DNA of 16,171 nt from a bacterium (GTDB lineage: Bacteria; UBA9089; CG2-30-40-21; SBAY01): NCBI GenBank assembly GCA_040757115.1, contig JBFLYA010000079.1:1-16171 (forward strand), written 5' to 3'. The translations under genes were made by a program, and so were the position numbers. How positions within the stretch are numbered: position 1 is the first letter of the stretch; each line of letters starts with the position of its first letter. This document shows positions 945-15,925 of this stretch, one piece after another. The notes beneath the pieces were generated by a model. The model was given only the letters and a program-made list of their open reading frames with translations. It ran no database searches and was not told where the DNA came from.

Positions 945-2126
945 ATGTTTATCTTTCAGAAAAATATAATGAAAGAGTTAATAATTTTTTCCTATATCTT
1001 TGTATTAGTGGAAGGTTGTTCTGGAGAGAAAGGCATCAAAACACTGGAAGATAATAATATTTTATCAGTGTTATTGAAACCTAAAGACCAAGACAAGTTT
1101 AAGTTTGGAGAAATATCAGAGGCAGTATTTATTTTGAAAAACCATTCCAATAAAGCAATAGTTGTATTAAATATCAAACCTATTACAAATCATGGTGAAG
1201 ATTCCATCGTTCTTTCGAGTAGTGCATACGGAAGCATTAGTAAATTAGACAATGAGGACGCTTACTGTTATAATGGAATGATACAATGTGCTACTTCGAT
1301 GCTCTTTCACGCTTGTTTGTTGCTGCCCAATCAAGAGGTATTAGTTTTATGTAACTATCGTCCGATTTCTAAAACTGAATGTTTTACGGTTGAATATGTT
1401 TCTGCAAAAGATAAATATGATGGGACACTCAAGTCCCTGAGTCCACTTAACATTTATCTGATAGATAAGAATAAGAAAAATGGTTGGAGTAGTAGTATAT
1501 ATCGTCCTTTTGTGGAAAAGAATTGGCTTAATATATGTAAAGAGACACCTCAAACTGGTCAAGTTGGTCCTGATATTTCAGAGAGGGCGGTTATAATTCC
1601 TGGATTACCTGCAAGACCTACAGTACTAACAACTAAGGTATCGATAGAGTTAGAAAATGGAACATTTTCTGTGGAATCTGCTCAAAAAGTTGCTACTAAA
1701 ATTTTAGGTTCACAACTAAGTAATATTCAGCTTGGTTATAGTAGTGCACTTGGCGGATATATTGTTTTAGAAAGGAATTTTTCCTGGCTTCTTAGAAATG
1801 ATTATCAGGAAAACCGTGGTAGACTACTCTCTCATTTTCCCCTAACAATGTTGAAAGATATAGATTCATTTGGAACTGTTACAATTTGTATTGGCAATAA
1901 GCAGGAAGGATTTGGTCCGGAAAGACATGATGCTGGTTGGAAATTCTGGAATATTTACACTGTTGGTTATGGTGATGGGATGTATACACGAGGAGAATTC
2001 ATTCAGATTAACAAAACGAGTTTGGTAGATTTTTTAGAACAAGTTAAGGAAAAAGATGGAAAGATTACAGAGTATAAATACTTCTTTCGCTCAAGATATT
2101 TTGTTCTTGAATTACCTAAAATGTAA
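945..2126 (+). CDS. Putative lipoprotein of unknown function
   Basis: A 393-residue product. ATG 945 is preceded by TAGGAG (932-937) at a normal distance. A second in-frame ATG at 969 gives a more conventional lipoprotein signal but has a poor binding site. The N-terminus has a Lys, a hydrophobic run (LIIFSYIFVLVEGC) and a Cys at residue 25, so it looks like a type II signal peptide. The lipobox VEGC is imperfect at the -2 position. The region around residues 45-75 (ISEAVFILKNHSNKAIVVLN) resembles an Ig-like beta-sandwich strand pattern. The C-terminal third (residues 225-393) is a separate, aromatic-rich segment containing YTVGYGDGMYTRGEF. No family is recognised. It lies 31 bases after the preceding exported protein and 37 bases before the next gene, so it likely shares their transcript. 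Confidence 0.78.
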   Translation: MFIFQKNIMKELIIFSYIFVLVEGCSGEKGIKTLEDNNILSVLLKPKDQDKFKFGEISEAVFILKNHSNKAIVVLNIKPITNHGEDSIVLSSSAYGSISKLDNEDAYCYNGMIQCATSMLFHACLLLPNQEVLVLCNYRPISKTECFTVEYVSAKDKYDGTLKSLSPLNIYLIDKNKKNGWSSSIYRPFVEKNWLNICKETPQTGQVGPDISERAVIIPGLPARPTVLTTKVSIELENGTFSVESAQKVATKILGSQLSNIQLGYSSALGGYIVLERNFSWLLRNDYQENRGRLLSHFPLTMLKDIDSFGTVTICIGNKQEGFGPERHDAGWKFWNIYTVGYGDGMYTRGEFIQINKTSLVDFLEQVKEKDGKITEYKYFFRSRYFVLELPKM

Positions 2127-2163
2127 CAAAAACAAAAATTTGCAAAAAGGAGGCCTTTTCACT

Positions 2164-3079
2164 ATGAAGAACCAATATTTAAGTTTTTTGGTATTAGTGA
2201 TAGTAAGCATTTCAGGTATCGTATTTGCAGAAGAGGTAGTAAAGAAAGAAACTATACCAGTATTAAAGATTGATAAAAAAATTAATACTATTGAGCAACC
2301 TGTAAATCCAGTAGCACCGCAAGAGTCAATAAAAATTAAGCAACCTTTACCTATACCTAAAATTGAGACAATAAAGGATTTTAATTTTAAGGTAACAGGA
2401 TATGGTGATACTGAGATAATCTTCTTCTCACCTCATATAATTCCACTTAAGACTTCACCTGAAGAGATGTATCGAATAGGAGATTATCTCCAGGCTAAAG
2501 GTGTTTATCGAAGGGATTACCAAACAGAAGTTAATTATATTGATGTGATTAAGATTAATCCAGAAAACCTATCCGAGATTAGCTATTTAAAGATATTCAT
2601 TAAGGGTAATTTATCTTTATCTTATTATAGTTATGTAGAAGTAGAAGGTGAGATTAGTAATATTCTGTCACCTGATTCGGTTTTAGTAGATAGGTTAACC
2701 CATTGGGAAAAAATAGAGATAGATACAGAGGCTATCTATGATGAATGTGCAAATGAGATTATGCTACAAGCAGATATTATTCCAAGCAGCAACAGAAAAC
2801 CCAGAGATAGCTCAATGGCTAAAGAAAGAATATAGTGTATCAAAAATTCCAAAGGAATATATAGAAAAATTACCTGATGCTAAATATAGAGAAATAGTAG
2901 GTTATGATTTTACTAATGAGTTGGTTACATGTACTTTTGAAGGGGATGAATTAATTAAAAATCCAAAATTTGCAGTATCTATGTTTATTAAATGCTTGTA
3001 TGATGATAAGTATAAGAAAGTAGCAAAAATGCAGATCTCTTTCCGTAAGATTGCTAAGGGGCAATTAGGTAGTTATTGA
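2164..3079 (+). pseudogene. Exported protein gene with a probable frameshift near 2780
   Basis: ATG 2164 follows a strong AAAAAGGAGG (2143-2152). The first frame encodes a clear signal peptide (FLVLVIVSISGIVFA), a Pro/Lys/Ile-rich linker to about residue 65, and a folded-looking domain, and it ends at a TAG at 2833-2835. Its last ~16 codons (PSSNRKPRDSSMAKERI) look non-native. The +1 frame over the same bases reads FQAATENPEIAQWLKKEYS and continues well to TGA 3077-3079. Removing one T of the TT at 2780-2781 joins the two into one ~304-residue protein. The cause is either a real inactivating insertion, two genuinely overlapping genes, or a sequence error. The second frame also has an ATG at 2738, but no ribosome binding site precedes it. 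The function is unknown. The stop is 14 bases before the next gene's ATG. Confidence 0.7.
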
Positions 3080-3093
3080 AAGGAGAAATTATA

Positions 3094-6000
3094 ATGCTGA
3101 GATTATCTTATTATGGAGTAACATTATTATTGATATTGTTATCATCTGTCTTAAATGCTCAGGCAGATAATAACAACTCTCCTTTTCCTCTCATTGGCAT
3201 ATTTGGCACTTTGGGAAATGGAGATGGTGAACTTCAACATCCATGCGGATTAGCAGTAGATGATATAAACGAATGGATTTATATTGCCGATACCGGTAAT
3301 AATAAGATAAAGAAGTTCAATCGATTTGGAGACTTCCAGGATTCATTCGGAGGAGTAGGTACTGAGGATGGCAAGTTTATTCATCCTTACGGAGTAGCAG
3401 TAGATACTACTAATGATGATATTTATGTTGTGGATACGGTCAATCATCGTATTCAAAAATTTCATATTGCTCAAGGTACTTATACATTTATACTAAAATT
3501 TGGTGAGATGGGTAGTGGCAATACACAATTTTACTTACCAAGAGATATGGATGTTGGTCATGATGGTAATATTTATGTTTGTGACTCTGGCAACCAGCGA
3601 ATACAAAAATTTAATACATCAGGAGACTGGTTAAATACTATTGGTCAAGATGCAGGATTACTATATCCTTATGGATTAGATGTAGATACTGATGGCAATA
3701 TTTATGTTGCAGATACCTATCATCACCGTATTGTAAAATTTAATTCAAATGGAAACTTTTTAATGGAATTTGGTACTCATGGAACAGGTCCTGGTGAGTT
3801 TTATTTCCCTCGAGATGTAGGAGTAGATAGTAGTGGTAATATCTTTGTTGCTGATACAGAGAATTATCGAATACAAAAATTTGACTCAAATGGTGAATAT
3901 CTTAACTCATTTGGTGTATTTGTTGACTTTCTATCTCCACAAAAGGTAGTCATAGATAAAAACTATAAACTTTATGTAATCGATTCCAATACTAACAAAT
4001 TACGCATTTATGATGTCAGTGATTATATAAGCAATGTATTTGCAAAGCCAAATCCTTTCTCACCAGATAATGATACCTTCCTGGATACTACCTATATTCA
4101 TTATACCATTCCAGAACCAGCAAAAATAACTATTACTATTTATGATAATACCAGTAGTTTAGTCCGAACTTTATTAGAAAATGAAGAAAGATTTACTTCT
4201 TCAAATGCAGAAGAATGGGATGGTAAAGATGATTACGGTATTACAGTTGTTGAAGGAATATATACCTGTAAGATAGATGCAGTAAATGCAGTTAATTATC
4301 ATGCCCCACAGGTATCATGTGAAGTAATGGTATATTATCCTAAAGGGCAAATTTCAGGGACAGTAACTGATGGGATAAATCCTATAGAAGGAGCAGTTGT
4401 TACCGATGGGATAAGATATAATATAACGGATAAAGATGGTAACTATACTATAAAAAATGTCCCGGCAGGTGTTTTTACTGTAATAGCAAGTAAGAGTGGT
4501 TACAGTAGTGCAGGGCAACAGGTTATAGTTGGAATAGAAGAGATAGTTACAGGAATCAATTTTATACTGGTACCTATATCTGCCGCAGGACAAATGTCAG
4601 GTAAGGTAGCTGATGATAAAATGAATCCAATAGAAGGAGCAATAGTATCAGATGGAGATAGACATGACATAACCAATGCCGATGGTGAGTATACAATAAA
4701 GAATATCCCAGATGGGACATATACAGTCACTGCCAGTAAAGAAGGCTTTAAACCAGCATCTCAATCGGTTACAATAACAGATGGAGGAATAGTTGTAGGA
4801 GTAGATTTTATGCTTGAATCAGAAGTTAACCATCCACCTGTATTAGACCCAATTGGAGATAAAGAGGTTGATGAAGGTAAATTATTAGAGTTTATTATTA
4901 CTGCTACTGATGAAGATGATGATATTTTAATCTTTGAGGTTGAGAATTTACCAACAGGAAGTACATTTATTGATGCTAAATTCAGTTGGAGACCTGCTTA
5001 TGACCAGGCAGGAACTTATCCAGTTACTTTCAATGTCTATGATGCTAAGGGCGGTACAGATACTGAAACTATCACAATTACAGTAAATGATATTATTCCT
5101 CCACGCTATGTTTGGATGTATAAATTTGAAAAATTTGATAATAATGAGGTAATTGACTATTTATGTAACATGGAAATTAATGGAGTATTTCTTAGTCTTG
5201 ATGTTAGGAAGATTAATGAAGGAAATCCCAATTACTCTGCAACATATACGGCTAAATTACAGGATTTCATTAACCAGGCTAATACTGAAGGTATTGAAGT
5301 TCATGCCATGACACTTGAAGACCCTAATTTTACCTATGAATCAGAGCATCAAAAGGGAATAGACCTGGTAGAGGATGTAATTGCATATTGCAGAAATAAT
5401 CCTCTTTTAGCATTAAAAGGTGTACATATTGATACTGAGCCACATGCATTAGATGAATGGCAAGATGGAGACTGGAACATACGAGAAATATTGATGCAGT
5501 CGTATGTACTGCTACTTAGTAAAATCAGAGATACTTTAGATGCTAATTCTGATGTCAACCTCCATTTTTCTGCCGGTATTGCCTGGTGGTACAATGAAAA
5601 GGCTAATGAAGGAAAACTACCTTCTGGTGATACCTCAAACTTAGCAAAATATCTACAAACAGTAGTTCCAATGGTGTATGTCTCACCTGATGGAATAATA
5701 AGTCGAGTAGAAGATGAAATTGAGGAGGCAGATACTATTGTAGGTATCAAGGTAGAAGATTTCTTTAACTTTTATAAAGAACTTAAAGATACTATGGTTA
5801 AAATTGATAAAGAGTTTGAGAGCAAAACTCATTATAAAGGTATTTCCGTATTCGAATATAAGACAATGAAAGAGCTATACTTATTACCTACAATTACTAT
5901 CTTTACAGATAAACCCGAATATTATACTAATGATACTCTCACCATAACAGCCTATGTTACTAATCGTGGTAATGATGTTAATGTTGATGTAAAGATTTGG

Positions 6001-6219
6001 CTAAAACTTCCAACTGATAAGTTAATATCATTGATAAATATGTATAATTATACTTTGAAACAAGGTATTGATTTTGAGGTTGATATATTTTACCATACCT
6101 TTGTTGGTAGTGAGCCACCTGGAGTGTATCTTGGAGGCAGTCGATTCTTAAATTTAATAACAGGTAATATTACCAGTGAGGATTTTACCTCTTTTGAATT
6201 TTTAGGTAGCTCTTATTAA
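3094..6219 (+). CDS. Large exported multidomain protein: NHL propeller, FlgD-like Ig, CarboxypepD-reg repeats, Ig, TIM-barrel-like domain
   Basis: ATG 3094 is used, with AAAGGAGA just upstream; the product is 1041 residues. Domains, with approximate residues: signal peptide 1-25 (cleavage near LNAQA); six NHL blades 30-311, each with a G(V/L)AVD-like strand and an (I/L)YVxDxxNxRIxKF-like strand; FlgD-like Ig domain 313-418 (AKPNPFSPDND start, EEWDGKDDYG...EGIY end); two carboxypeptidase-regulatory-like domains at 419-496 and 499-576, both containing PIEGA(V/I)V and DGxYTIKN(V/I)P; PIG/cadherin-like Ig 579-670 (NHPPVLDPIGDKEVDEG); a TIM-barrel-like region 671-929 with HIDTEPH (Glu782); and a C-terminal Ig-like domain 930-1041. 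NHL propellers usually bind proteins or other ligands. The barrel suggests a glycoside-hydrolase-like or pseudo-enzyme role, but no catalytic pair could be assigned. The protein is probably secreted or surface-located. Confidence 0.9.
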   Translation: MLRLSYYGVTLLLILLSSVLNAQADNNNSPFPLIGIFGTLGNGDGELQHPCGLAVDDINEWIYIADTGNNKIKKFNRFGDFQDSFGGVGTEDGKFIHPYGVAVDTTNDDIYVVDTVNHRIQKFHIAQGTYTFILKFGEMGSGNTQFYLPRDMDVGHDGNIYVCDSGNQRIQKFNTSGDWLNTIGQDAGLLYPYGLDVDTDGNIYVADTYHHRIVKFNSNGNFLMEFGTHGTGPGEFYFPRDVGVDSSGNIFVADTENYRIQKFDSNGEYLNSFGVFVDFLSPQKVVIDKNYKLYVIDSNTNKLRIYDVSDYISNVFAKPNPFSPDNDTFLDTTYIHYTIPEPAKITITIYDNTSSLVRTLLENEERFTSSNAEEWDGKDDYGITVVEGIYTCKIDAVNAVNYHAPQVSCEVMVYYPKGQISGTVTDGINPIEGAVVTDGIRYNITDKDGNYTIKNVPAGVFTVIASKSGYSSAGQQVIVGIEEIVTGINFILVPISAAGQMSGKVADDKMNPIEGAIVSDGDRHDITNADGEYTIKNIPDGTYTVTASKEGFKPASQSVTITDGGIVVGVDFMLESEVNHPPVLDPIGDKEVDEGKLLEFIITATDEDDDILIFEVENLPTGSTFIDAKFSWRPAYDQAGTYPVTFNVYDAKGGTDTETITITVNDIIPPRYVWMYKFEKFDNNEVIDYLCNMEINGVFLSLDVRKINEGNPNYSATYTAKLQDFINQANTEGIEVHAMTLEDPNFTYESEHQKGIDLVEDVIAYCRNNPLLALKGVHIDTEPHALDEWQDGDWNIREILMQSYVLLLSKIRDTLDANSDVNLHFSAGIAWWYNEKANEGKLPSGDTSNLAKYLQTVVPMVYVSPDGIISRVEDEIEEADTIVGIKVEDFFNFYKELKDTMVKIDKEFESKTHYKGISVFEYKTMKELYLLPTITIFTDKPEYYTNDTLTITAYVTNRGNDVNVDVKIWLKLPTDKLISLINMYNYTLKQGIDFEVDIFYHTFVGSEPPGVYLGGSRFLNLITGNITSEDFTSFEFLGSSY

Positions 6220-6381
6220 CTACTATATTTATCCGTGCTAATCCGTGTTAATCAGTGGCTGAATAGTTACTTATTTTCAATACATTTATTGTAAGCGTTC
6301 AGCAGTCAGCCATCAGTTGTCAGCTTATATACAAAAGTGTTATTCTTTGTCAGGACGGATTTTTAATGTTATAGTTTCTAT
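6220..6381. other. Convergent intergenic region with dispersed-repeat ends
   Basis: The gap separates the plus-strand exported-protein block from the minus-strand cobO end. It holds one copy of the ATCCGTG/GGCTGAAnnGTTAC repeat (6231-6270). An inverted variant, GTAAGCGTTCAGC (6291-6303), and a CAGTCAGCCATCAGTTGTCAGC stretch (6303-6324) follow. No convincing rho-independent terminator (GC stem plus T-run) was found on either strand. Confidence 0.6.
6231..6270 (+). repeat. Dispersed ATCCGTG...GGCTGAAnnGTTAC repeat, copy 1
   Basis: It reads ATCCGTGCTAATCCGTG, then TTAATCAGTGGCTGAATAG, then TTAC. The reverse complement of 9284-9327 is nearly identical, and looser copies occur at 9459-9497, 9561-9590 and 15247-15282. 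Internally it is a degenerate ~10-11-base tandem (ATCCGTGCTA / ATCCGTGTTA / ATCAGTGGCT). Confidence 0.8.
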
Positions 6382-6912
6382 TTAAAACTCAATCCCTTTT
6401 CTTCTCTGAATTCCTGAGTCATAAGGATGCTTTATTTTTTTTATCTCACTAACTAAATCTGCTTTTTCAATTATTTTCTGCGTTGCCCCACGACCAGTCA
6501 AAACCAATTCCATGCCTGGCGGTTTAGATTCCATTAGTTCTATTATTTCTTCCTCCTTCAAGAAGCCGTCCCGCAAGGAAATTAGAATTTCATCAAGTAT
6601 CAGCATATCGTAGCGATTTTCCTGGTAGAGATTTTTAATAAACTTCAGTCCCTTCTGGCATTCTTCCCGCATCTCGTTGTAGGTAACATCTTTGAAGAAA
6701 TGTGGGTGTTTTTTGGCAACCCCAAAAATATCCACTCCAATTTTTTCTAAGATTTGATGTTCGCCAGATTTCCATCGTGCTGGGGCTTTATGGAAATAAA
6801 CATATCCCACTTTGAAATTATGCCCCTTTGCTCTCACCGCAAGACCAACAGCCGCCGTTGTTTTACCTTTACCTTCTCCAGTATAAATCTGAATCAATCC
6901 CCTTTTTTTCAT
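6382..6912 (-). CDS. cobO: Corrinoid adenosyltransferase (cob(I)alamin adenosyltransferase)
   Basis: CobO/BtuR/CobA-type enzyme that transfers the adenosyl group of ATP to the cobalt of a corrinoid, giving adenosylcobalamin in the cytoplasm. Family marks: P-loop GEGKGKTT at residues 12-19, LILDEI (Walker B-like), ELVLTGRGA, and the C-terminal signature HPYDSGIQRRKGIEF. Its 176 residues match the usual family length. The start is ATG 6912, with AAAGGGGTGA about nine bases upstream. A GTG at 6924 is also in frame, but it would lie inside that ribosome binding site. It begins 16 bases after the stop of the membrane glycosyltransferase gene, so the two are probably cotranscribed. This is not an obvious functional pairing. 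The only cobalamin-related neighbour is the B12-binding-domain radical SAM protein at 13643-15067. Confidence 0.95.
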   Translation of the reverse strand: MKKRGLIQIYTGEGKGKTTAAVGLAVRAKGHNFKVGYVYFHKAPARWKSGEHQILEKIGVDIFGVAKKHPHFFKDVTYNEMREECQKGLKFIKNLYQENRYDMLILDEILISLRDGFLKEEEIIELMESKPPGMELVLTGRGATQKIIEKADLVSEIKKIKHPYDSGIQRRKGIEF

Positions 6913-6928
6913 TAAACAATTCACCCCT

Positions 6929-8785
6929 TTAGAGTTGAAATACCGATATTGCCCCTTGACAGTAAATTAATTTTAAATGATTTTGCATAAATTCGTGATA
7001 TAATCTTTTCTCTTCCTTATTTTGAAAAGAGAAGTAATCAAAATATTTACTTAGCCACTGGCTACCTATTTCATTATAAAGTAAATGGGTTACGCCTGAT
7101 TTCTTTAAATTATCTATCAGGTCTTTTTTATTTTTGGATTTACGGATTAATTCAAGGATGATATTGGTATCGAATTGCGTACTGACTAATTTATCCTGCT
7201 GACAATAGTAACTTCGCACCTCGCCAATAAATAAAATCTTACTTTCTTTTGGTAAATGCTGATTAATATATGAAATAACATCATAATAATCTTTAATGAT
7301 TGATTTTTTAAGGAGAAATTTTTCACATCCATCTTTTTTTAAGCACATCAGATAAGAATTTTTATAGACAGTTTTTGAGACATTAAATAAATTCCATAAC
7401 AGGCAAATAGCCAGTAAAAGATAAAGGTATTTGAACTTCGAAATCACATAGCCTATGACAACACATAATAAAACAAAACAAGGCAAACTAAACCTATCTA
7501 CTGCACAAACATAAGACCAGAACAAAAAGAAAATCCCACAAAAGGTAAGTAAATATTTGAGGTTAAAATCTAATTTTTTAAGTTTCAGAAGGAAGGGTAG
7601 AGAAATAATGAATATTGGACCTACCGGGATTTTTACACCCGTATCCATCCCACCCCATTTAAAACATATATTCCAGAAGAAGATAAATGGTTTTAATAAC
7701 AGGTGTTCTCCGGCACTATATCTGGTCATCTCATGAAGATACCGGCTCTGGTGAATTTGACTCCAATTTTTCCCACCAAAAGTATCGTAAAGCAATGGGA
7801 AAACAGGATTGCCGGTAAAAATAAGGTTTTTTATCAGCCATGGGACAACAGGTATCAAGGCAAATACCCCAAAAATAATCGTTGTTTTAATTGCTTTTAA
7901 AATCCCGTCTTGCCGCCACTTCCCAATTAAAATACTTAAAACTAAAATCCCAAATCCAAACCCGCCAAAATACTTAACACCAATAGATAATCCACAGGTT
8001 AGTCCAGACAGCAATAACCATCCATAAGTCTTTTCTTTATACCAAACTAAAAACGCATAAACCGCTAAAATCTCATAAAAAGTAATGGCAAAATCATTAA
8101 AGGCAGATGTAGCCACAAAAATGGCTAATGGCATACTACAAAAAGATAAAACAGATAAAAAGGCAACCTTTGGAGTAAAATATCTTCTCGCTAAAGAGTA
8201 AATACTCAATCCCGATAATATCCCAAATAAAAAATGTATTAATTTAGCCAGCAAATCTCCATTTAATAAAAGTCCAAGAGTGAAAAGCATTTCGGTATTA
8301 AAGGTATAGTTTGAAAAGCAATTATAGGGTAGATAGATAATCTTATGATGTTTAACATAAATTTCGGGCACGGCTAAATGATAAACCAGGGCATCAAAGG
8401 TAACTGTGGGAACCAGGACTAAAATTATGGCTAAGATGAGGGTAAGTGCAATGAAAAAACTGCAAATTAAAGAAAAGGGATTTAAATTAATTTTTACAAG
8501 AAATTTTCTTAAAAGGTATAAAATTTCACAATAAAAAATGCCTGCTAACAGCACAAATATTAAATAAAAGACCCAATCATAAAGCAAGCCTGATAATCCG
8601 AGGCATAACACAAGATAAGATACACATCCCAATCCTAATCCGGTTGAAAATATTAGTTCCTCTAAAAAACTATGTGTTTTAATCTTAAGGATTTTGAGTA
8701 TCTTCAGCCCCAAACAGAAGGAAATTAGTATCAGAAGAAACAATTGACTAATTTCAGTTAACCTAAGATTCGCCAGATTTATCAT
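6929..8785 (-). CDS. GT-C-type multipass membrane glycosyltransferase (ArnT/PMT-like)
   Basis: A 618-residue integral membrane protein with roughly ten or more hydrophobic helices over residues 12-480 and a C-terminal soluble segment (about 490-618). After the third or fourth helix it has PTVTFDALVYHLAVPEIY. The Asp131 in this first outer loop matches the catalytic acidic residue position of PMT/ArnT-like GT39/GT83 enzymes, which use polyprenyl-phosphate sugars. The substrate is unknown. Start chosen at ATG 8785 because a TTGACA-N17-TACAAT promoter lies directly upstream (8795-8823) and would start the RNA about three bases before this codon. The longer open frame to 8941 would place codons upstream of that promoter and inside a dispersed repeat, and the same peptide is encoded by the other repeat copy near 15340-15437. 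It is likely cotranscribed with cobO. Confidence 0.85.
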   Translation of the reverse strand: MINLANLRLTEISQLFLLILISFCLGLKILKILKIKTHSFLEELIFSTGLGLGCVSYLVLCLGLSGLLYDWVFYLIFVLLAGIFYCEILYLLRKFLVKINLNPFSLICSFFIALTLILAIILVLVPTVTFDALVYHLAVPEIYVKHHKIIYLPYNCFSNYTFNTEMLFTLGLLLNGDLLAKLIHFLFGILSGLSIYSLARRYFTPKVAFLSVLSFCSMPLAIFVATSAFNDFAITFYEILAVYAFLVWYKEKTYGWLLLSGLTCGLSIGVKYFGGFGFGILVLSILIGKWRQDGILKAIKTTIIFGVFALIPVVPWLIKNLIFTGNPVFPLLYDTFGGKNWSQIHQSRYLHEMTRYSAGEHLLLKPFIFFWNICFKWGGMDTGVKIPVGPIFIISLPFLLKLKKLDFNLKYLLTFCGIFFLFWSYVCAVDRFSLPCFVLLCVVIGYVISKFKYLYLLLAICLLWNLFNVSKTVYKNSYLMCLKKDGCEKFLLKKSIIKDYYDVISYINQHLPKESKILFIGEVRSYYCQQDKLVSTQFDTNIILELIRKSKNKKDLIDNLKKSGVTHLLYNEIGSQWLSKYFDYFSFQNKEEKRLYHEFMQNHLKLIYCQGAISVFQL

Positions 8786-8794
8786 CTTATTACC

Positions 8795-8823
8795 ATTGTA
8801 TCTAACACCTAACAGATTGTCAA
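8795..8823 (-). promoter_or_regulatory. Sigma70-type promoter of the membrane glycosyltransferase gene
   Basis: On the minus strand: TTGACA (8818-8823), a 17-base spacer, then TACAAT (8795-8800). The -35 is perfect and the -10 matches five of six. The predicted RNA start is near 8788, three bases before ATG 8785, so the transcript would be essentially leaderless. Confidence 0.7.
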
Positions 8824-8835
8824 GCAATTTAATTT

Positions 8836-9281
8836 TTATATGGGTTATTAACTGGAAGTTTACATAGGATAATACCCATAAATAAGGCATGAGAATAATC
8901 GTTCCGTTAGGAACATAATATCGGTAGGAATAGATAGACAAATCAATCAGTTCCGTAGGAACGATATATTGGTAGAAAATTTATGGAAAGCCATTTACCG
9001 ATATATTGTCCCTCTGGGACATTATTTGTATGATATTTATTTCTACCGATATGTTCTCCCTATGGGACATTAAATGAAGGATGAGGTAGAATTTTCACAT
9101 TCTATTTTTTCCCATTTTATCATAAGAAATGGGAGAAGGCAAGCCAAATGGACATAATTGTCTAAAAATATAGAGAGTTATAGCACTAATTTGACATAGT
9201 GTAGTAATGGTTCACACATAACTTGTTAATTCACTACGAGTATTTAATTCTAAGTAATGTTTTGAATAATAACTGCTATAG
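8836..9281. mobile_element. Long dispersed MITE-like repeat, copy A
   Basis: It matches 15323-15857 nearly base for base apart from three length differences. Ends: TTATATGGGTTATTA (8836-8850) and TAATAACTGCTATAG (9267-9281), which form a 15-base imperfect terminal inverted repeat in the TATAGC(G/A)GTTATTA style. The interior has four small hairpin units: GTTCC/GGAAC at 8901-8914 and 8950-8962, GTCCC/GGGAC at 9008-9020, TCCC/GGGA at 9057-9067. Each is next to a CGATAT-GGTAGAA-like arm, two in one orientation and two in the other. It has no coding capacity for a transposase. It may be a non-autonomous element moved in trans. Confidence 0.8.
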
Positions 9282-9283
9282 TC

Positions 9284-9330
9284 GTAACTATTCAGCCACT
9301 GATTACCATGGATTAGCACGGATAAATAAC
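9284..9330 (-). repeat. Dispersed GGCTGAAnnGTTAC repeat, copy 2
   Basis: In reverse complement it reads ATTTATCCGTGCTAATCC, then a shared TAATCAGTGGCTGAATAG, then TTAC. It is almost the same as copy 1 at 6231-6270, and forms the left arm of the palindromic element. Confidence 0.75.
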
Positions 9331-9351
9331 AGAGGAGAGAAAGCACAGTGG

Positions 9352-9425
9352 TAGGAACAGAGCTTGTTCCTATCCGTTCCGTAGGCGGAAGAACTACAAG
9401 GGTTGTCCTTATAACTCTAAGGACA
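9352..9425. other. Cluster of three strong hairpins
   Basis: TAGGAACA / TGTTCCTA (9352-9359, 9365-9372, loop GAGCT); TTCCG / CGGAA (9377-9381, 9386-9390, loop TAGG); TGTCCTTA / TAAGGACA (9404-9411, 9418-9425, loop TAACTC). All stems are perfect. No T-run follows on either strand, so these are not typical terminators. They could be repeat-element cores or a structured RNA. Confidence 0.55.
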
Positions 9426-9458
9426 GGCAAGTCTCCCAAATACGATTAGCGGGATTTT

Positions 9459-9497
9459 CCGTGTTTCATCTGTGTACATCCGTGGCTGAATCGTTAC
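9459..9497 (+). repeat. Dispersed GGCTGAAnnGTTAC repeat, copy 3
   Basis: CCGTGTTTCATCTGTG, then TACATCCGTGGCTGAATCG, then TTAC. It is a diverged copy in the opposite orientation to copy 2, and forms the right arm of the palindromic element. Confidence 0.65.
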
Positions 9498-9560
9498 CAT
9501 ATTTTTACCTATATCTGAACGCTTACAAAAAATCTTGCGTCCAATAAAAATCAGTATCTC

Positions 9561-9590
9561 ATCCGTGTTCATCTATGGCTGAACAGTTAT
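9561..9590 (+). repeat. Dispersed GGCTGAAnnGTTA repeat, copy 4
   Basis: ATCCGTGTTCATCTATGG followed by CTGAACAGTTAT. It lies immediately downstream of the speA-like stop codon, on the opposite strand. An inverted GTAAGCGTTCAG variant sits at 9514-9525. Confidence 0.6.
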
Positions 9591-9598
9591 GATATTTT

Positions 9599-11065
9599 TT
9601 ACCTTACTACTTTGATTGTTTTTAAAGTTGGGGCTTCGGGGCCATTAAATCGCATTCCAGCTTTAGACTCAAGATTAATATAATCAATAATCCCTTGAGA
9701 TATTCTTTCCCCGGGAAAAAGAAGAGGGATACCAGGAGGGAAAGGAACAATTAATTCAGCTGAAATTTCTCCGGATGCGTGAGTGAATTCTATCGTCTTG
9801 TGCTTACCAAAGACAGCATCATGTGGAGTTAAAACCTGTTCTGGTAAATCATGTAAGAAGTTTATTAATGGACTATATTTTTTAGATAGCTCTTGTGTTT
9901 TTAAAGTATTTATTTCTTCTTTAGAAGTAAAATCCCGCAAGCAAAAAAGTAGATAATCTATATCTTGCTCAGTATCTCCGATACTTATAATCAGGACAAT
10001 GTTAAACAAATCTGACATCTCTATTTTAATCTTATATTGTTCTTGAAGGATTCGCTCTACTTCATACCCAAGGCAACCTATTTTCTTAACTGTAATTGTT
10101 ATTCGAGTAGGGTCTAAATCGTAAACTCCGGGTTTGCCAATTAGTTCTTTACCAAAACAGGACAACCCGGGGATTTTATTTACCTCATTTCGTACTTTTG
10201 TAGCTAATTCAATTGTTTTTGTTAATAGTTTTTCACCTTCGGTTGCCATTTGCATACGAGCACAATCAAGAGAGGCTCTTAAAATACAAGAAGGACTTGT
10301 AGTTTGCAGTAGACTAAGGATTGACTTAACTCGCGCAGGATTTATGCTCTTTCCTTTAATATGAAGCATAGATGCTTGTGTCATCCCAGAAAGCAATTTA
10401 TGGGTGCTATTAACACACATATCTGCTCCTGCCTCCATAGCGGAAGTGGGAAGTAAAGGATGAAATTTAAAATGAGCTCCCCAGGCTTCATCCACTAAAA
10501 GTAACTTATCATAATGATGGGTAATTTGGGCTATTTTTTCAATATCCGTGGTCAATCCATAATAGGTTGGATTAACTATAATTACTGCCTTTGCTTGAGG
10601 ATGTTTTTTGATTGCCTCTTCGACATCCTCAGGGGTAACATTATAAGGAATATGTAACTCCTCATCCATCTCAGAGGGTATAAATACCGGGACTGCACCA
10701 GCTAAGATAACTCCAGAGATAATGGATTTATGAGCATTGCGAGGAACAATAATCTCATCTCCAGAACTACAAACAGAGAGAATCATTACATGGATACCAC
10801 TTGTCGTCCCATTCACTAAGAAGAAAGATTTATCGGCGCCATAGGCTTGTGCAGTAAATAATTGTGCCTCTTCCAACACCTTCTCATAATTCTCTATATC
10901 ATCTATATCCAGGTCTAATTTGAGGACTTCTTCTCCTACAAATTTGCGGAATTTTTCAGTACAACCCTTTCCTTGTTTATGTCCAGGAGTATGAAAAGGT
11001 AGTGTCTTATCCTCTACATATTTAATCATGGCATCAAAATATGGTGTCTGATATTGTGTTAACAT
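9599..11065 (-). CDS. speA: Orn/Lys/Arg decarboxylase family PLP enzyme (probable arginine decarboxylase, short SpeA type)
   Basis: Fold-type I PLP decarboxylase of 488 residues, the length of the short Bacillus-type SpeA/YaaO group. Seen: PFHTPGHKQGKG (residues 23-34), LVNGTTSGIH (83-92), VDEAWGAHFKFH with Asp192 for the pyridine nitrogen, STHKLLSGMTQ with PLP-lysine Lys223, and the C-terminal AELIVPFPPGIPLLFPGE. It decarboxylates arginine to agmatine, or lysine/ornithine to the diamine; the sequence alone does not settle the substrate. The spe neighbours favour polyamine biosynthesis. The start is ATG 11065, with GGAGG five to six bases upstream. A TTG at 11077 is in frame but would precede that site. 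The preceding gene's TAA ends one base before this ATG, so translation is probably coupled. Confidence 0.93.
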   Translation of the reverse strand: MLTQYQTPYFDAMIKYVEDKTLPFHTPGHKQGKGCTEKFRKFVGEEVLKLDLDIDDIENYEKVLEEAQLFTAQAYGADKSFFLVNGTTSGIHVMILSVCSSGDEIIVPRNAHKSIISGVILAGAVPVFIPSEMDEELHIPYNVTPEDVEEAIKKHPQAKAVIIVNPTYYGLTTDIEKIAQITHHYDKLLLVDEAWGAHFKFHPLLPTSAMEAGADMCVNSTHKLLSGMTQASMLHIKGKSINPARVKSILSLLQTTSPSCILRASLDCARMQMATEGEKLLTKTIELATKVRNEVNKIPGLSCFGKELIGKPGVYDLDPTRITITVKKIGCLGYEVERILQEQYKIKIEMSDLFNIVLIISIGDTEQDIDYLLFCLRDFTSKEEINTLKTQELSKKYSPLINFLHDLPEQVLTPHDAVFGKHKTIEFTHASGEISAELIVPFPPGIPLLFPGERISQGIIDYINLESKAGMRFNGPEAPTLKTIKVVR

Positions 11066-11066
11066 C

Positions 11067-11642
11067 TTATCCTCCAACTACTATATTCTCTGAATATTTT
11101 TTATACCAAAAATACATGATTATACCATACCCAATTATTGGAATGAATATAGTCAATAAGGTATATGGAATTAAACCTAATAATACTAATATCGCAAACA
11201 AAACAAAGATTACTACTCCAATACTATCAGTTATAATCCACACCTTAACTTTTGTTGGTGCTTTCTTCCTTCCATGTTCAAAAAACAACAAAATATCCCA
11301 AAAAGAATATAAGATAAAAAGACCCGAAACCCAAATCCAATAATAGGTTATTTCTTTTGAGGAAGAAGTATAAATCAGTTTATATATTACAAATAAGATT
11401 ATTGTATCTGTTGCAAATCGCCATTTAGTTTCTGAATAAGGTTTTTCAAAATCAGTCTCATGAACTATTATCCAATCACTTACGACAACAATGTATGTGA
11501 AAAAGAACAAGATATATCCCATTGCACTTGAGATTTTTTCAAAGTTACTAAATCCAATCCCTAATATAACTCCATACATTACATCGATAAAACTAAATAG
11601 ATATTTTGATTCTTTTTTGACAATAGAGGTCTCTTTATTCAT
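11067..11642 (-). CDS. Six-helix membrane protein of unknown function in the polyamine operon
   Basis: 191 residues, with about six hydrophobic helices: near residues 15-32 (FSFIDVMYGVILGIGF), 41-60, 77-90, 99-120, 133-160 and 163-180. Charged loops lie between them, including ETDFEKPYSETKWR after helix 2. No family is recognised. Its ATG overlaps the speE stop by eight bases (ATGAATAA) and it has no good ribosome binding site of its own, so reinitiation after speE is likely. Its own tail carries the GGAGG that serves the speA start. This tight embedding between two polyamine enzymes suggests a linked role such as transport, sensing or membrane tethering, which is inference only. A TMEM175-like channel resemblance (short FxD in helix 1) is too weak to claim. 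Confidence 0.85.
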   Translation of the reverse strand: MNKETSIVKKESKYLFSFIDVMYGVILGIGFSNFEKISSAMGYILFFFTYIVVVSDWIIVHETDFEKPYSETKWRFATDTIILFVIYKLIYTSSSKEITYYWIWVSGLFILYSFWDILLFFEHGRKKAPTKVKVWIITDSIGVVIFVLFAILVLLGLIPYTLLTIFIPIIGYGIIMYFWYKKYSENIVVGG

Positions 11643-12540
11643 TTTCTAATTTCCAAATCAAATCTTTTGAATTAAATATTCCATATGGAAGTTTATTTGA
11701 AACAATATCTTTGAGAAATTCTGGTAATATAAAACAACCTTGATGAATCTCAGGTGTATAATATTTAAAATTCAATCCTCTGTCGTTAATTCTTCTTTTA
11801 ATTTCTTCAATTTTTATTTCATCAGGTCTAAACGTCTTTGAACCGATAGTAAAACTCCAATAGATCCCAGGATAAGTTGGAACTATTGCGGTATAAACCT
11901 TGACCACAGGAAATACTGTTTTCATATTATTGACTACCATTTGAAGCATATTAGGCTGAAATATAGGGGACCCACTCTGTGTAACTATTATTCCACTATC
12001 ATTCAAATATCGAGCCGCAGTTTGATAGAATTGAGGTGTGAACAAATTTACTGCCTCTCCAATTGGGTCAGTTGAATCTACCAATATTATATCATAAGAT
12101 TCTTTGCTATTCTGAAGAGTTATGCTTGCCTCAGCAAATATTAAATTTACTCGACTGTCTTTATATGCATCTTTTGATATATCAAGATATTCCTGGCAGA
12201 TTGAAACTACTTCCTTGTCTAACTCAACCATAGTTACTTTTTCAACAGGATGGCGCAAAACTTCACGCAAAGTGCAACCATCACCACCACCAACAATATA
12301 AACAGAACCTGGTTCAGGATGTGTTAGAAGTGGTGAATGAACCAGCATTTCATGATAAATAAATTCATCCGTCTCAGTTAATTGAACGATGTCATCTAAA
12401 AGTAACATTTTACCAAATTGATATGAATCTACAATTTTAATATTTTGATAAGCAGATTGCTTTTCGTATAATAGATTTTTAATTTTGTAACTGTGGGCAC
12501 AATACGGAGTAGCAAAATCTTTAATCCATTCTTCAAACAT
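11635..12540 (-). CDS. speE: Spermidine synthase (polyamine aminopropyltransferase)
   Basis: Transfers the aminopropyl group of decarboxylated S-adenosylmethionine to putrescine or a similar amine, in the cytoplasm. The 301 residues fit the family. Seen: N-terminal beta domain with LLLDDIVQLTETDEFIYHEML (Tyr62-His63-Glu64), the nucleotide-binding GGGDGCTLREVLRH (residues 84-97), MVELDKEV for ribose contact, and DSTDPIGEAVNLF (155-167) with the substrate and catalytic aspartates Asp155 and Asp158. Start ATG 12540 follows AGAGGAG at about ten bases. The first gene of the speE-membrane protein-speA cluster. speD lies 647 bases upstream on the same strand, separated by a MITE-like element. No convincing promoter was found directly before speE. 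Confidence 0.96.
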   Translation of the reverse strand: MFEEWIKDFATPYCAHSYKIKNLLYEKQSAYQNIKIVDSYQFGKMLLLDDIVQLTETDEFIYHEMLVHSPLLTHPEPGSVYIVGGGDGCTLREVLRHPVEKVTMVELDKEVVSICQEYLDISKDAYKDSRVNLIFAEASITLQNSKESYDIILVDSTDPIGEAVNLFTPQFYQTAARYLNDSGIIVTQSGSPIFQPNMLQMVVNNMKTVFPVVKVYTAIVPTYPGIYWSFTIGSKTFRPDEIKIEEIKRRINDRGLNFKYYTPEIHQGCFILPEFLKDIVSNKLPYGIFNSKDLIWKLENE

Positions 12541-12603
12541 CTACATTTTCTCCTCTTTGTAATCGCTCAGGTGTAGGTAAAAATATGGTAACTATAACTC
12601 AAA

Positions 12604-12944
12604 TGGGTGTGGCTATTCTTAAACGACAGGAGATTTATTGTATCTCCTATGGTTATGTAAAAAAGAGTTAATAAAAAAGTTCCCTTCGGGTATAGATATA
12701 AAGTAGCCATCTTAATATCTCTATCAGAGATAGTCTATTTTCAGTTATCTTTGTGTTCTTTGTGTCTCCTTTGAGAACTTTGTGTTTAATAATGTAGGTA
12801 TCCTTAATTTAACCACAAACCTTACGAAGTTTTTCACAACGCTCACAGAGATATAGATTTATAATGTAATGTTCTTTATAAACAGATTCCTTAAAAAGGA
12901 ACAGGAAGTCTGTTTTAACCGTCGTCCAAAAGTAGCCACACCCA
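12604..12944. mobile_element. MITE-like element between speD and speE (24-bp TIRs, 7-bp duplication)
   Basis: The outer ends are TGGGTGTGGCTA (12604-12615) and TAGCCACACCCA (12933-12944). Extended to 24 bases (12604-12627 and 12921-12944) the two inverted repeats match at 20 positions and end in ACGAC. Both sides are flanked by the direct repeat ACTCAAA (12597-12603 and 12945-12951), as expected of a target site duplication. The 341-bp interior has no transposase. It holds hairpins AGGAGAT/ATCTCCT (12628-12648), TATCTCT/AGAGATA (12716-12732) and AAACAGA/TCTGTTT near the right end, plus a CTTTGTGTTCTTTGTGTC tandem (12749-12766). The family of the mobilising transposase is not assigned. Confidence 0.85.
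12749..12786 (+). repeat. CTTTGTG-type degenerate tandem repeat
   Basis: CTTTGTGTT CTTTGTGTCT CCTTTGAGAA CTTTGTGTTT: a ~9-10-base unit repeated four times. A related inverted stretch follows (AACCACAAACC at about 12820), and a CTTTGCGTCTCTGCG relative lies in the repeat near 15549. Confidence 0.6.
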
Positions 12945-13171
12945 ACTCAAATTTCAAAACGCAAAGATCAAAACTATAACTTAAAACTAAAGAGTTCTCC
13001 ATCAGTCGCAATAAATCTTAATCAGTCTCTTAGAGAGTTCATAGAGTTATTGTAATTACAATCTCTTAATTCTACAAACTCTTAACTCTATAAACTCTAT
13101 TAGTTTTAAGGTTTTGAGATGAGGTTTTGAGTTTTGACTTTTGAGTTAATATTGTCCAGCCTAATGGATAG

Positions 13172-13185
13172 GGCTGAACGGTTAC
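13172..13185 (+). repeat. GGCTGAACGGTTAC repeat end, copy 5 (partial)
   Basis: Only the conserved terminal 14 bases of the dispersed family are present, next to the speD stop codon. The left bases also pair in CAGCC/GGCTG (13157-13161, 13172-13176). No T-run follows on the minus strand, so a terminator call is not supported. Confidence 0.5.
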
Positions 13186-13187
13186 TC

Positions 13188-13565
13188 CTATTTGTATTTT
13201 AATGGTGCACCATGTGGTTTTAAAATCCCTCTTTTAATCTCATGCAAGGTAAAATTTTTTGCCTTGAGTTCTTTTACCAGATAATCTGCGGCATCTTCAG
13301 GTTTCAATACTGTTCCACAGGTAAAAACATCACCTGCCGCATAGTTATATTCAGGCCAGGTATGGATGGATAAATGCGATTCTGCGATGACAACTATGGC
13401 ACTCACACCATGTGGTGAAAATTTATGTGAAGATGTCTTAAGTACAGTAGCACCACAATTTTCTGCCGCAGAGACCAATATGTGCTCTACCTTCTTTTCA
13501 TCATTTAAGATGTCTTTATCACATTCATATAATTCTATGAGTAAATGTTGTCCCAATGCCTCCAT
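13188..13565 (-). CDS. speD: S-adenosylmethionine decarboxylase proenzyme, prokaryotic class 1B type
   Basis: Pyruvoyl enzyme that makes decarboxylated S-adenosylmethionine, the aminopropyl donor for SpeE. The 125 residues match the short Thermotoga/Bacillus-type family. Self-cleavage is expected between Glu62 and Ser63 in AESHLSIHTWPE, turning Ser63 into the pyruvoyl group. His68 (processing) and Cys83 in AAGDVFTCG (proton donor) are present, so the enzyme looks intact. Start ATG 13565 has TAGGAGAG about seven bases upstream. It has its own TTGACA promoter (13596-13624), giving a leader of about 25 bases. It lies upstream of speE on the same strand, but the repeat element at 12604-12944 separates them, so readthrough is uncertain. 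Confidence 0.96.
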   Translation of the reverse strand: MEALGQHLLIELYECDKDILNDEKKVEHILVSAAENCGATVLKTSSHKFSPHGVSAIVVIAESHLSIHTWPEYNYAAGDVFTCGTVLKPEDAADYLVKELKAKNFTLHEIKRGILKPHGAPLKYK

Positions 13566-13595
13566 TTCATCTCTCCTATAAAATTTAACCTTAAT

Positions 13596-13624
13596 ACTTT
13601 ACATTAAAATACAGGATTTGTCAA
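13596..13624 (-). promoter_or_regulatory. Sigma70-type promoter of speD
   Basis: Minus strand: TTGACA (13619-13624), a 17-base spacer, TAAAGT (13596-13601, four of six consensus bases). The -35 begins within 20 bases of the upstream radical SAM gene's stop, so speD appears to be transcribed on its own. Confidence 0.6.
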
Positions 13625-13642
13625 GAAAAATTTTACATCCTT

Positions 13643-15067
13643 CTATCTCATCGTCTTACCACTTATTACCTTTATACCTGCTTTTACCTTTTTTTTAAAT
13701 TCGCCAAAGGATTTTATTTTAAGCAATTCCTTGAGGATATATGTTGGTCTTGTGTAAAAATACTTATAGGAATAATCAATTAATTCAAGTAATTCCGCAG
13801 AGGTAAGGTTTTCTTCCCAATATTCGGGTTGAAAGTTTTCTGTTGGATTTTGGGCAAAGTCGTGCCAGAAGTCTCTTTTTATAATTCCCTGTTCCAGTCC
13901 CTTTTGGTAAATATAGGTAGCCGGAAATGGCGTTGTAATGGTAATGTGGACAAAATCAGGGTTTAGTTTTTTGGCAAATTTTAAGGTTTGTAAAATATCC
14001 TCTTTAGTTTCTGTAGGTGAGCCAATCATAAAATAAGCCAGGGTAGAAATTCCTATCTTTTTAGTCAGACGAAATGCCTCTTCTACCTGCGTTAATGTAA
14101 TTCCTTTCCTTAAAACCTTAAGTATTTTTTCAGTTCCTGCCTCAACACCGTAATGGATTCTTTCACAATTAGCCTGTTTTAATTTTTTTAGCATCGTCTC
14201 ATCGACTGTATCCACTCGCACCCTTATATCCCAGCCAATATCTAATCTTTCCTTGATAATCTCATCGCAAATATCCAATACTCGTTGTCTATCAATGGAA
14301 AAGGTATCATCATAGATTAAAAATTCATTAATCCCCAGTTTAATACATTCTTTCATTTCCAAAATGACATTTTTCGCCGAATGTGCTCTAAATCGTTTCC
14401 CAAGGTGAGGTCTTGAACAAAAACTGCAATTATAAGGACAGCCGCGGCTGGTAATCATCGTCGTAATCGGGTTTCGTTTGGCAATCAAAGAAGAGTATTT
14501 TTTATAAGGGACCAAATGTCTTGCCGGATGCGGGAGTTCATCTAAATTTGTTATAAAATCTCGCGAGCCGGTATTGTATATTTTCCCATTGGCTTTAAAT
14601 ACTAATCCAGGGATATTCTTTAATTTCTCTAAATCATTAATATTATCCACCAATTCTGCAAAGGTGATTTCTCCCTCACCTAAGACTAAAAAGTCGATTT
14701 CAGGGAAAGATATTGTTTCGTTCGGGTAGATATAGATATGTGGACCACCTAAGACAATCTGGATTTCCTTAGAGATATTTTTAATCAGCTTAGCCGTTTT
14801 AAGAACATCAATCAATGTAAATGTCATCGTGGTCATTCCCACAACATCAGGATTGGTTTGTCTAATTTTTGATTCCAGTTCGTCGTAGTTTATTCCCTCT
14901 ACCTGGGAATCCAATATCTTTACTTGATGAGATGTCCGTTTCTCAAGGTAACCAGCGATATACAGTAATCCTAATGGTGGATTATATCCTCGCTCTTCAT
15001 CAATTATTGAGGGATTATTTCCTTTTAAGGTATATTTTGCTGGTGGATTGATTAATAATATTTTCAT
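13643..15067 (-). CDS. B12-binding-domain radical SAM protein
   Basis: 474 residues. The N-terminal ~140 residues form a Rossmann-like B12-binding domain (MKILLINPPA, PPLGLLYIAGYL, DVVGMTTMTFT, IVLGGPH, EIDFLVLGEGE). The radical SAM core follows, with CPYNCSFC (Cys210, Cys214, Cys217) for the 4Fe-4S cluster that cleaves S-adenosylmethionine. Later motifs are FLIYDDTFS, ERIHYGVEAGTEKILK and FMIGSPTETKED. The usual B12 DxHxxG is DSQVEG here (residues 53-58), so the cobalt-ligating His is absent, as in many members of this class. The substrate is unknown; methylations and ring formations are typical of relatives. ATG 15067 is chosen over TTG 15073 because the promoter at 15075-15104 predicts an RNA start at about 15068, next to it. 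Confidence 0.9.
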   Translation of the reverse strand: MKILLINPPAKYTLKGNNPSIIDEERGYNPPLGLLYIAGYLEKRTSHQVKILDSQVEGINYDELESKIRQTNPDVVGMTTMTFTLIDVLKTAKLIKNISKEIQIVLGGPHIYIYPNETISFPEIDFLVLGEGEITFAELVDNINDLEKLKNIPGLVFKANGKIYNTGSRDFITNLDELPHPARHLVPYKKYSSLIAKRNPITTMITSRGCPYNCSFCSRPHLGKRFRAHSAKNVILEMKECIKLGINEFLIYDDTFSIDRQRVLDICDEIIKERLDIGWDIRVRVDTVDETMLKKLKQANCERIHYGVEAGTEKILKVLRKGITLTQVEEAFRLTKKIGISTLAYFMIGSPTETKEDILQTLKFAKKLNPDFVHITITTPFPATYIYQKGLEQGIIKRDFWHDFAQNPTENFQPEYWEENLTSAELLELIDYSYKYFYTRPTYILKELLKIKSFGEFKKKVKAGIKVISGKTMR

Positions 15068-15074
15068 CACCAAT

Positions 15075-15104
15075 AATATACCAGATATAGATGGTATTTG
15101 TCAA
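15075..15104 (-). promoter_or_regulatory. Sigma70-type promoter of the radical SAM gene, predicting a leaderless RNA
   Basis: Minus strand: TTGACA (15099-15104), an 18-base spacer, TATATT (15075-15080). Only seven bases separate the -10 box from ATG 15065-15067, placing +1 within about a base of the start codon. No ribosome binding site is present. Confidence 0.7.
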
Positions 15105-15246
15105 GAAGAAGATATTGAAACTTACCCATATCTTTTAATCTTAAGTTTTTATATCTATTCAGGTTATGACAAGTTTTATTTGATATTAACTCAAAACCCA
15201 AATGTCAAAAGTCAAATCTACAACTCAAAACTTAAAACTGATGTCC

Positions 15247-15282
15247 TTATTCAGCCACTGATTAACACGGATTAACACAGAT
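15247..15282 (-). repeat. Dispersed ATCCGTG/GGCTGAA repeat, copy 6
   Basis: In reverse complement: ATCTGTGTTAATCCGTG, then TTAATCAGTGGCTGAATAA. It has the same core as copy 1, but the terminal GTTAC is lost. Confidence 0.7.
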
Positions 15283-15457
15283 AGAATAGAATGAGTTAAA
15301 ATATGAAAGATAACAGAGGATATTATAGCGGTTATTAACTGGAAGTTTACATAGGATAATACCCATAAATAAGGTATGAGAATAATCCTTCCGTTAGGAA
15401 CATAATATCGGTAGGAATAGATAGACAAATCAATCAATTCCGTAGGAACGATATATT

Positions 15458-15591
15458 GGTAGAATGAAAGGTAATGAGTCTTGCGAAGTAGTAAAATTTC
15501 CCATTTTTCATTTCCTATTTTACATTTTACATTTTACATTTATTTTTCCTTTGCGTCTCTGCGATGAATTAGTCTAATCGCACAGGTAGAA
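15458..15591. mobile_element. 120-bp insert flanked by GGTAGAA direct repeats
   Basis: Copy A has a single GGTAGAA at 8971-8977. Copy B has GGTAGAA at 15458-15464, then 120 extra bases (15465-15584, starting TG and ending CA), then GGTAGAA again at 15585-15591, after which the match resumes. This is the pattern of an insertion with a 7-base target duplication. Inside are an ATTTTAC tandem (15517-15541) and CTTTGCGTCTCTGCG. There are no extended terminal inverted repeats. A deletion in copy A between the two GGTAGAA sites would look the same. Confidence 0.6.
15517..15541 (+). repeat. ATTTTAC short tandem repeat
   Basis: Three perfect 7-base ATTTTAC units plus ATTT, inside the 120-bp insert. 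Confidence 0.85.
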
Positions 15592-15925
15592 AATTTATGG
15601 AAAGCCATTTACCGATATATTGTCCCTATGGGACATTAAATGAAGGATGAGGTAGAATTTTCACATTCTATTTTTTCCCATTTTATCATAAGAAATGGGG
15701 GAAGGCAAGCCAAAGGGATATAATTGTCTAAAAATATAGAGAGTTATAGCACTAATTTGACATAGTGTAGTAATGGTTCACGCATAACTTGTTAATTCAC
15801 TACGAGTAGTTACGAGTATTTAATTCTAAGTAAAGTTTTGAATAATAACTGCTATAGCAAGTAAAGGGTAGAGCGAAAAAAATAGCAGATAGTGATGTTT
15901 TCCGCGCTACTCTCTACATATCATC

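Follow-up and report, generated by a model that had tools for sequence, protein, structure and literature searches.

An orphan gene for a probable membrane protein within a spermidine gene set that most likely replaced another in place

Bacterial operons can become mosaics through gene displacement in situ: foreign homologues replace native genes, and the flanks are kept. Membrane proteins linked to polyamine levels include the known bacterial polyamine exporters MdtJI (SMR family), PaeA (CorC/CNNM-like), and Blt (MFS).

Polyamine gene clusters also spread horizontally, with speD and speE as neighbors and with interchangeable, non-homologous diamine-forming enzymes (PMC10407285; PMC8503589). 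It has been raised as a possibility that an entire cluster is transferred and takes the place of the host pathway (PMC10407285). In Leptospirillum ferrooxidans, a lysine decarboxylase gene lies directly downstream of speD and speE, and a missing agmatinase or agmatine deiminase has served as the criterion for predicting ornithine decarboxylases (PMC8503589).

The window (the whole stretch of DNA analyzed, 16,171 nucleotides from genome G000) contains a locus that resembles each of these systems in part. It shares with the horizontally spread clusters the speD and speE neighbors and the interchangeable diamine-forming enzymes. Unlike those clusters, it reveals a replacement at a single site when near-identical genomes are compared, and the new set includes an extra membrane gene, here termed X. 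As in mosaic operons, native genes appear to have been replaced in place between kept flanks; unlike in mosaic operons, the displaced and incoming sets share the speE function only, and their partner genes are non-homologous. Like MdtJI, PaeA, and Blt, the X product is a probable membrane protein with a possible link to polyamine levels. However, it has no above-cut-off Pfam match to any of their families, and it differs from MdtJ and MdtI in size and helix number.

Two gene sets at one site

Comparison with a sister genome of the same genus, G001, delimits a swapped segment at window positions 8797 to 13228 (no strand assigned). Outside this segment the two genomes are 95–99% identical in DNA (96.7% over 2146–6942, 98.6% over 6932–8797, and 95.5% over 13228–15119); inside, DNA continuity is absent and the genes differ. 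The left breakpoint lies at the start of a PMT_2 gene. The right breakpoint falls within the last codons of speD (13188–13565, minus strand), the native AdoMet decarboxylase gene, which profiles and the comparison with G001 show to be common to both genomes and retained in the window.

The counterpart in G001 (contig C39, locus L026, 12485–15258) carries three genes in the same direction: a spermidine synthase gene, speE'; a speD-like gene encoding 140 residues; and an agmatinase gene. The window carries speE (11635–12540, minus strand; PRK00811 and TIGR00417 profiles), a foreign-type spermidine synthase 37% identical to the speE' product; X; and a gene for an Orn/Lys/Arg decarboxylase (9599–11065, minus strand, with its start ATG at 11065; PF01276) of about 488 residues and the "ancestral" AAT-fold form.

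The sister set, with two SpeD homologues, one SpeE, and SpeB, matches clusters described previously (PMC10407285; PMC8503589). Its 140-residue SpeD homologue (L026 13566–13988, adjoining the agmatinase gene) scores 78 bits against an AdoMet decarboxylase cut-off of 75.65 bits, barely over. The agmatinase gene beside a second SpeD homologue fits the gene context of the pyruvoyl-dependent arginine decarboxylases (PMC10407285), making this homologue a candidate SpeD-derived enzyme of that type. In G000, neither agmatinase (PF00491) nor agmatine deiminase (PF04371) was detected, and control genomes were positive. By published reasoning (PMC8503589), this favors an ornithine (or lysine) decarboxylase, so the window enzyme, labeled "speA" in the first-pass annotation, may act on ornithine or lysine.

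Which set is native? In eight other genomes of the phylum, the order is speD followed by a G001-type speE. The speE' product is 49–54% identical to those of phylum relatives, and the window SpeE about 37% identical to all of them; the window decarboxylase was searched for in relatives of its own phylum and was not found. The closest relatives of both foreign enzymes are those of locus L074, from Candidatus Stahlbacteria (SpeE 65–66%, decarboxylase 72% identical), and loci L075 and L076, from two metagenome-assembled genomes (SpeE 68%, decarboxylase 65%). The window SpeE joins these three in a tree with support of 0.977. Moreover, neither the native speE' nor any agmatinase gene was found elsewhere in G000, which argues for a true replacement and not a chimeric contig. 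The locus displays the hallmarks of in-situ displacement of a polyamine cassette by horizontal transfer: its flanks are conserved, the genes between them are non-homologous or xenologous, and those that came in have foreign affinities. Most likely, the window genome took up a foreign speE-decarboxylase set and lost its own.

The acquired cassette would have displaced the native speE'-(speD-like)-agmatinase set through recombination in the shared flanks, one being the 3' end of speD and the other the beginning of the PMT_2 gene. An inverted repeat of 40 nt, 88% complementary, brackets speE, X, and the decarboxylase gene (repeat comparison; left arm 9490–9529, right arm 12556–12595, no strand assigned). 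It encloses no transposase gene, and its arms may be the limits of the segment that moved.

Several further observations, in this region and in related loci, deserve mention. Dispersed intergenic repeats of several families lie at 8942–9270, 9284–9341, 15248–15299, and 15429–15846; they recur on other contigs of G000, and one is shared with the sister genome. A gene that is intact in the sister (305 residues; L026 5579–6496) corresponds to two overlapping window reading frames (2056–2835 and 2738–3079), which suggests a frameshift behind the split gene at 2056–3079. The window yielded no Rfam match, and a promoter scan found it about as rich as shuffled sequence. At locus L009 (genome G008, of the same phylum), speE is nearer the foreign type than the native one, and distant from both. 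Finally, speE of L074 (6061–6888) has an in-frame stop within its coding region, representing either a pseudogene or a sequencing error.

Gene X and its junctions

Gene X (11642–11067, minus strand) is an open reading frame of 191 codons (576 nt) that begins with ATG. Its junctions are as the first-pass annotation described them. At the upstream junction (...GAAAATGAATAA...), the X start overlaps the speE stop by 8 nt, ATGAATAA (11635–11642, minus strand). At the downstream junction (...GTAGTTGGAGGATAAGATG...), one base separates the X stop TAA from the decarboxylase ATG, and the final X codons (11067–11080, minus strand) carry GGAGG, which probably serves the decarboxylase gene as its ribosome binding site. 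An in-frame stop lies just upstream of X; the ATG in ATGAATAA is the sole ATG before helix 1, and the next, at codon 22, falls within that helix. ATGAATAA therefore contains the only likely start.

X is a real gene. Among 5,000 dinucleotide shuffles of the 576 nt, read in six frames, the longest open run was 56 codons at the median and 169 at most; none reached 191, so the reading frame is not a chance opening. X and speE very probably are co-transcribed, and a single message would carry speE, X, and the decarboxylase gene. Because the X ATG is preceded only by a weak GGAA, translation of X presumably relies on ribosomes that terminate at the speE stop and reinitiate there. The end of X would in turn supply the decarboxylase ribosome binding site, and so the main sequence-supported effect of X may be continued coupling of the downstream enzyme.

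How much does the overlap itself reveal? The X ATG is built from the last codons of speE, and the L074 speE C-terminus likewise reads GATGAATAA with no X behind it. The 8-nt overlap is thus partly an accident of the speE C-terminus; since it comes free with that end, it says little about the dosage control proposed initially.

Hydropathy analysis of the predicted X protein reveals six hydrophobic segments; positive charges fall at the amino terminus, in loop 4, and at the carboxyl terminus. This pattern is consistent with cytosolic location of both termini and makes a six-helix membrane protein probable, as first proposed. Five aspartates (Asp20, 56, 79, 116, and 139) are each placed some 5–7 residues inside the cytosolic end of helices 1 to 5, a pattern spotted post hoc. 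Read with that caution, the aspartates suggest cation binding; the best guess, made with little confidence, is that X is a small membrane protein that binds cations. (A three-fold two-helix repeat, prompted by the aspartates in helices 1, 3, and 5, was rejected: hairpin comparisons gave p values of 0.30–0.55 by shuffling.)

The view that X belongs to no recognized family held up against Pfam (E values up to 10), NCBIfam (up to 5), PHROGs, PADLOC, and PDB sequences, none of which gave a match. All that emerged were weak fragment matches to MFS_Mycoplasma and DUF443, with E values of about 0.004 and below cut-offs. An AlphaFold2 model from the single sequence, with no alignment, had a mean pLDDT of 51.6; for that reason, the folds that it matched (14-3-3, an Mrp antiporter fragment, and GPCR fragments) were set aside.

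Translated searches for homologues were negative elsewhere in G000; in 19 genomes of its phylum; in 386 genomes sampled from its phylum and domain, its own apart; in 147 genomes from the phylum of the nearest enzyme relatives; and in plasmids and phages. Together these searches represent about 530 distinct genomes at moderate sensitivity. X was absent from L074, L075, and L076, and a pattern scan of viral contigs found none. An exact-peptide scan of GTDB (84,980 species), the one search to cover archaeal genomes, also found none; these two wider scans reach close relatives only. Weak or relaxed-threshold matches proved on inspection to be unrelated, non-coding, or chance alignments. There is good support for the lack of close relatives, and not for the lack of distant ones. 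All were single-sequence searches, which can miss remote homologues, so X could belong, in diverged form, to a broader family.

Origin and possible role of gene X

The neighborhood survey suggested for X tells against conservation beside speE and the decarboxylase gene. In L074, the gap between these genes is 109 nt and empty; in L075 and L076, a spacer of about 1.8 kb holds a family-18 glycosyl hydrolase gene on the opposite strand. X is absent from all 39 other same-strand speE-decarboxylase pairs, these three nearest cassettes included; 35 of the 39 have gaps below 400 nt (median 34). (Membrane genes adjoining the decarboxylase gene in other genomes proved to be housekeeping neighbors, SecD/SecF and BacA.) The lack of X in the nearest relatives and the other pairs argues that X most likely is a late insertion into the acquired cassette, and not a conserved polyamine component. 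Tight packing between polyamine enzymes was correctly noted at the outset; that it implies a polyamine-linked component is not supported.

The best explanation, favored with somewhat better than even confidence, is that X is a real lineage-specific orphan, inserted late between speE and the decarboxylase gene of a horizontally acquired spermidine cassette that replaced the native set. The location of X can be explained without a dedicated polyamine role. As a counterpoint, X is tightly coupled on both sides, and maintained operon coupling often is functional.

A possible variant, though not the leading one, is that X belongs to an existing small-membrane-protein family, uncatalogued or very diverged and with a function unrelated to polyamines, and was brought in by a separate, independent insertion; the late-insertion explanation accommodates this variant, which differs solely in the origin of X. 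Dispersed repeats that recur elsewhere in the genome are abundant in the spacers around the cassette, which points to a rearrangement-prone region, and many candidate-phylum proteins fall outside profile libraries. Nevertheless, recombination scar, transposase, and repeat are absent at both ends of X, and relaxed search thresholds yielded chance alignments only.

Could X be a polyamine-specific exporter, importer, or sensor that arrived with the foreign cassette, balancing the new pool, with its dose set by co-translation? Position and coupling speak for this, as does a size typical of small transporters; moreover, six predicted helices with five aspartates near the cytosolic face could bind a polycation. 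Yet the nearest-relative cassettes all lack X, transporter families in Pfam and NCBIfam do not match it, and the association with polyamine genes is a single instance that cannot be told from chance. The first-pass annotation said that homologues mainly away from polyamine genes, or a clear match to an unrelated family, would weaken the link; neither outcome was seen, since no homologue was found. A polyamine role for X is unsupported and, on balance, unlikely. X may nonetheless have originated in the donor, within a relative outside the sequenced set, and have had a polyamine role there.

Somewhat less likely again is that X is a young, de novo gene: a hydrophobic, AT-rich reading frame born in the spacer that follows speE, with its ATG borrowed from the last speE codons. 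The uniformly negative homology searches, the very low GC content of X (27.8%), the presence of that ATG in L074 without X, and the variable spacer (109 nt versus about 1.8 kb) all agree with such an origin. However, a length of 191 codons, with six well-spaced helices and charges that follow a consistent pattern, would be large for a gene born de novo. The synonymous codon choice of X also leans toward genomic usage, an equally high score being reached by 2.95% of simulated genes.

A bolder proposal, and an improbable one, is that X founds a new small-membrane-protein family that would handle polyamines or another cation through an aspartate belt at the cytosolic face, recruited at the pathway replacement for tolerance of the new polyamine output.

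Assembly chimerism, with speE, X, and the decarboxylase gene coming from another organism in the sample, is the least likely reading and very unlikely overall: the genome is in 462 contigs and misassembly could result from dispersed repeats close to the left breakpoint, but two joins would be required, the displaced native genes are missing from a 99.9%-complete genome, the tetranucleotide profile and GC content match most other sampled contigs, and the right side is without a long repeat in the sampled stretches.

Significance of the locus

Taken alone, X has little significance, with one known instance; pending a second, it is an orphan of the ordinary kind. The operon swap is more informative, the position of X being weak evidence for a polyamine role. 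The locus does show that a non-conserved gene can appear tightly integrated.

More broadly, two genomes of one genus, 95–99% identical at this site, have two non-homologous routes to spermidine from one position: in G001, probably an arginine route with agmatinase; in the window genome, a PLP-dependent Orn/Lys/Arg decarboxylase without agmatinase. The locus thereby offers a new and unusually clean example of the known process of in-place gene displacement, and a concrete case of the whole-pathway replacement raised previously (PMC10407285).
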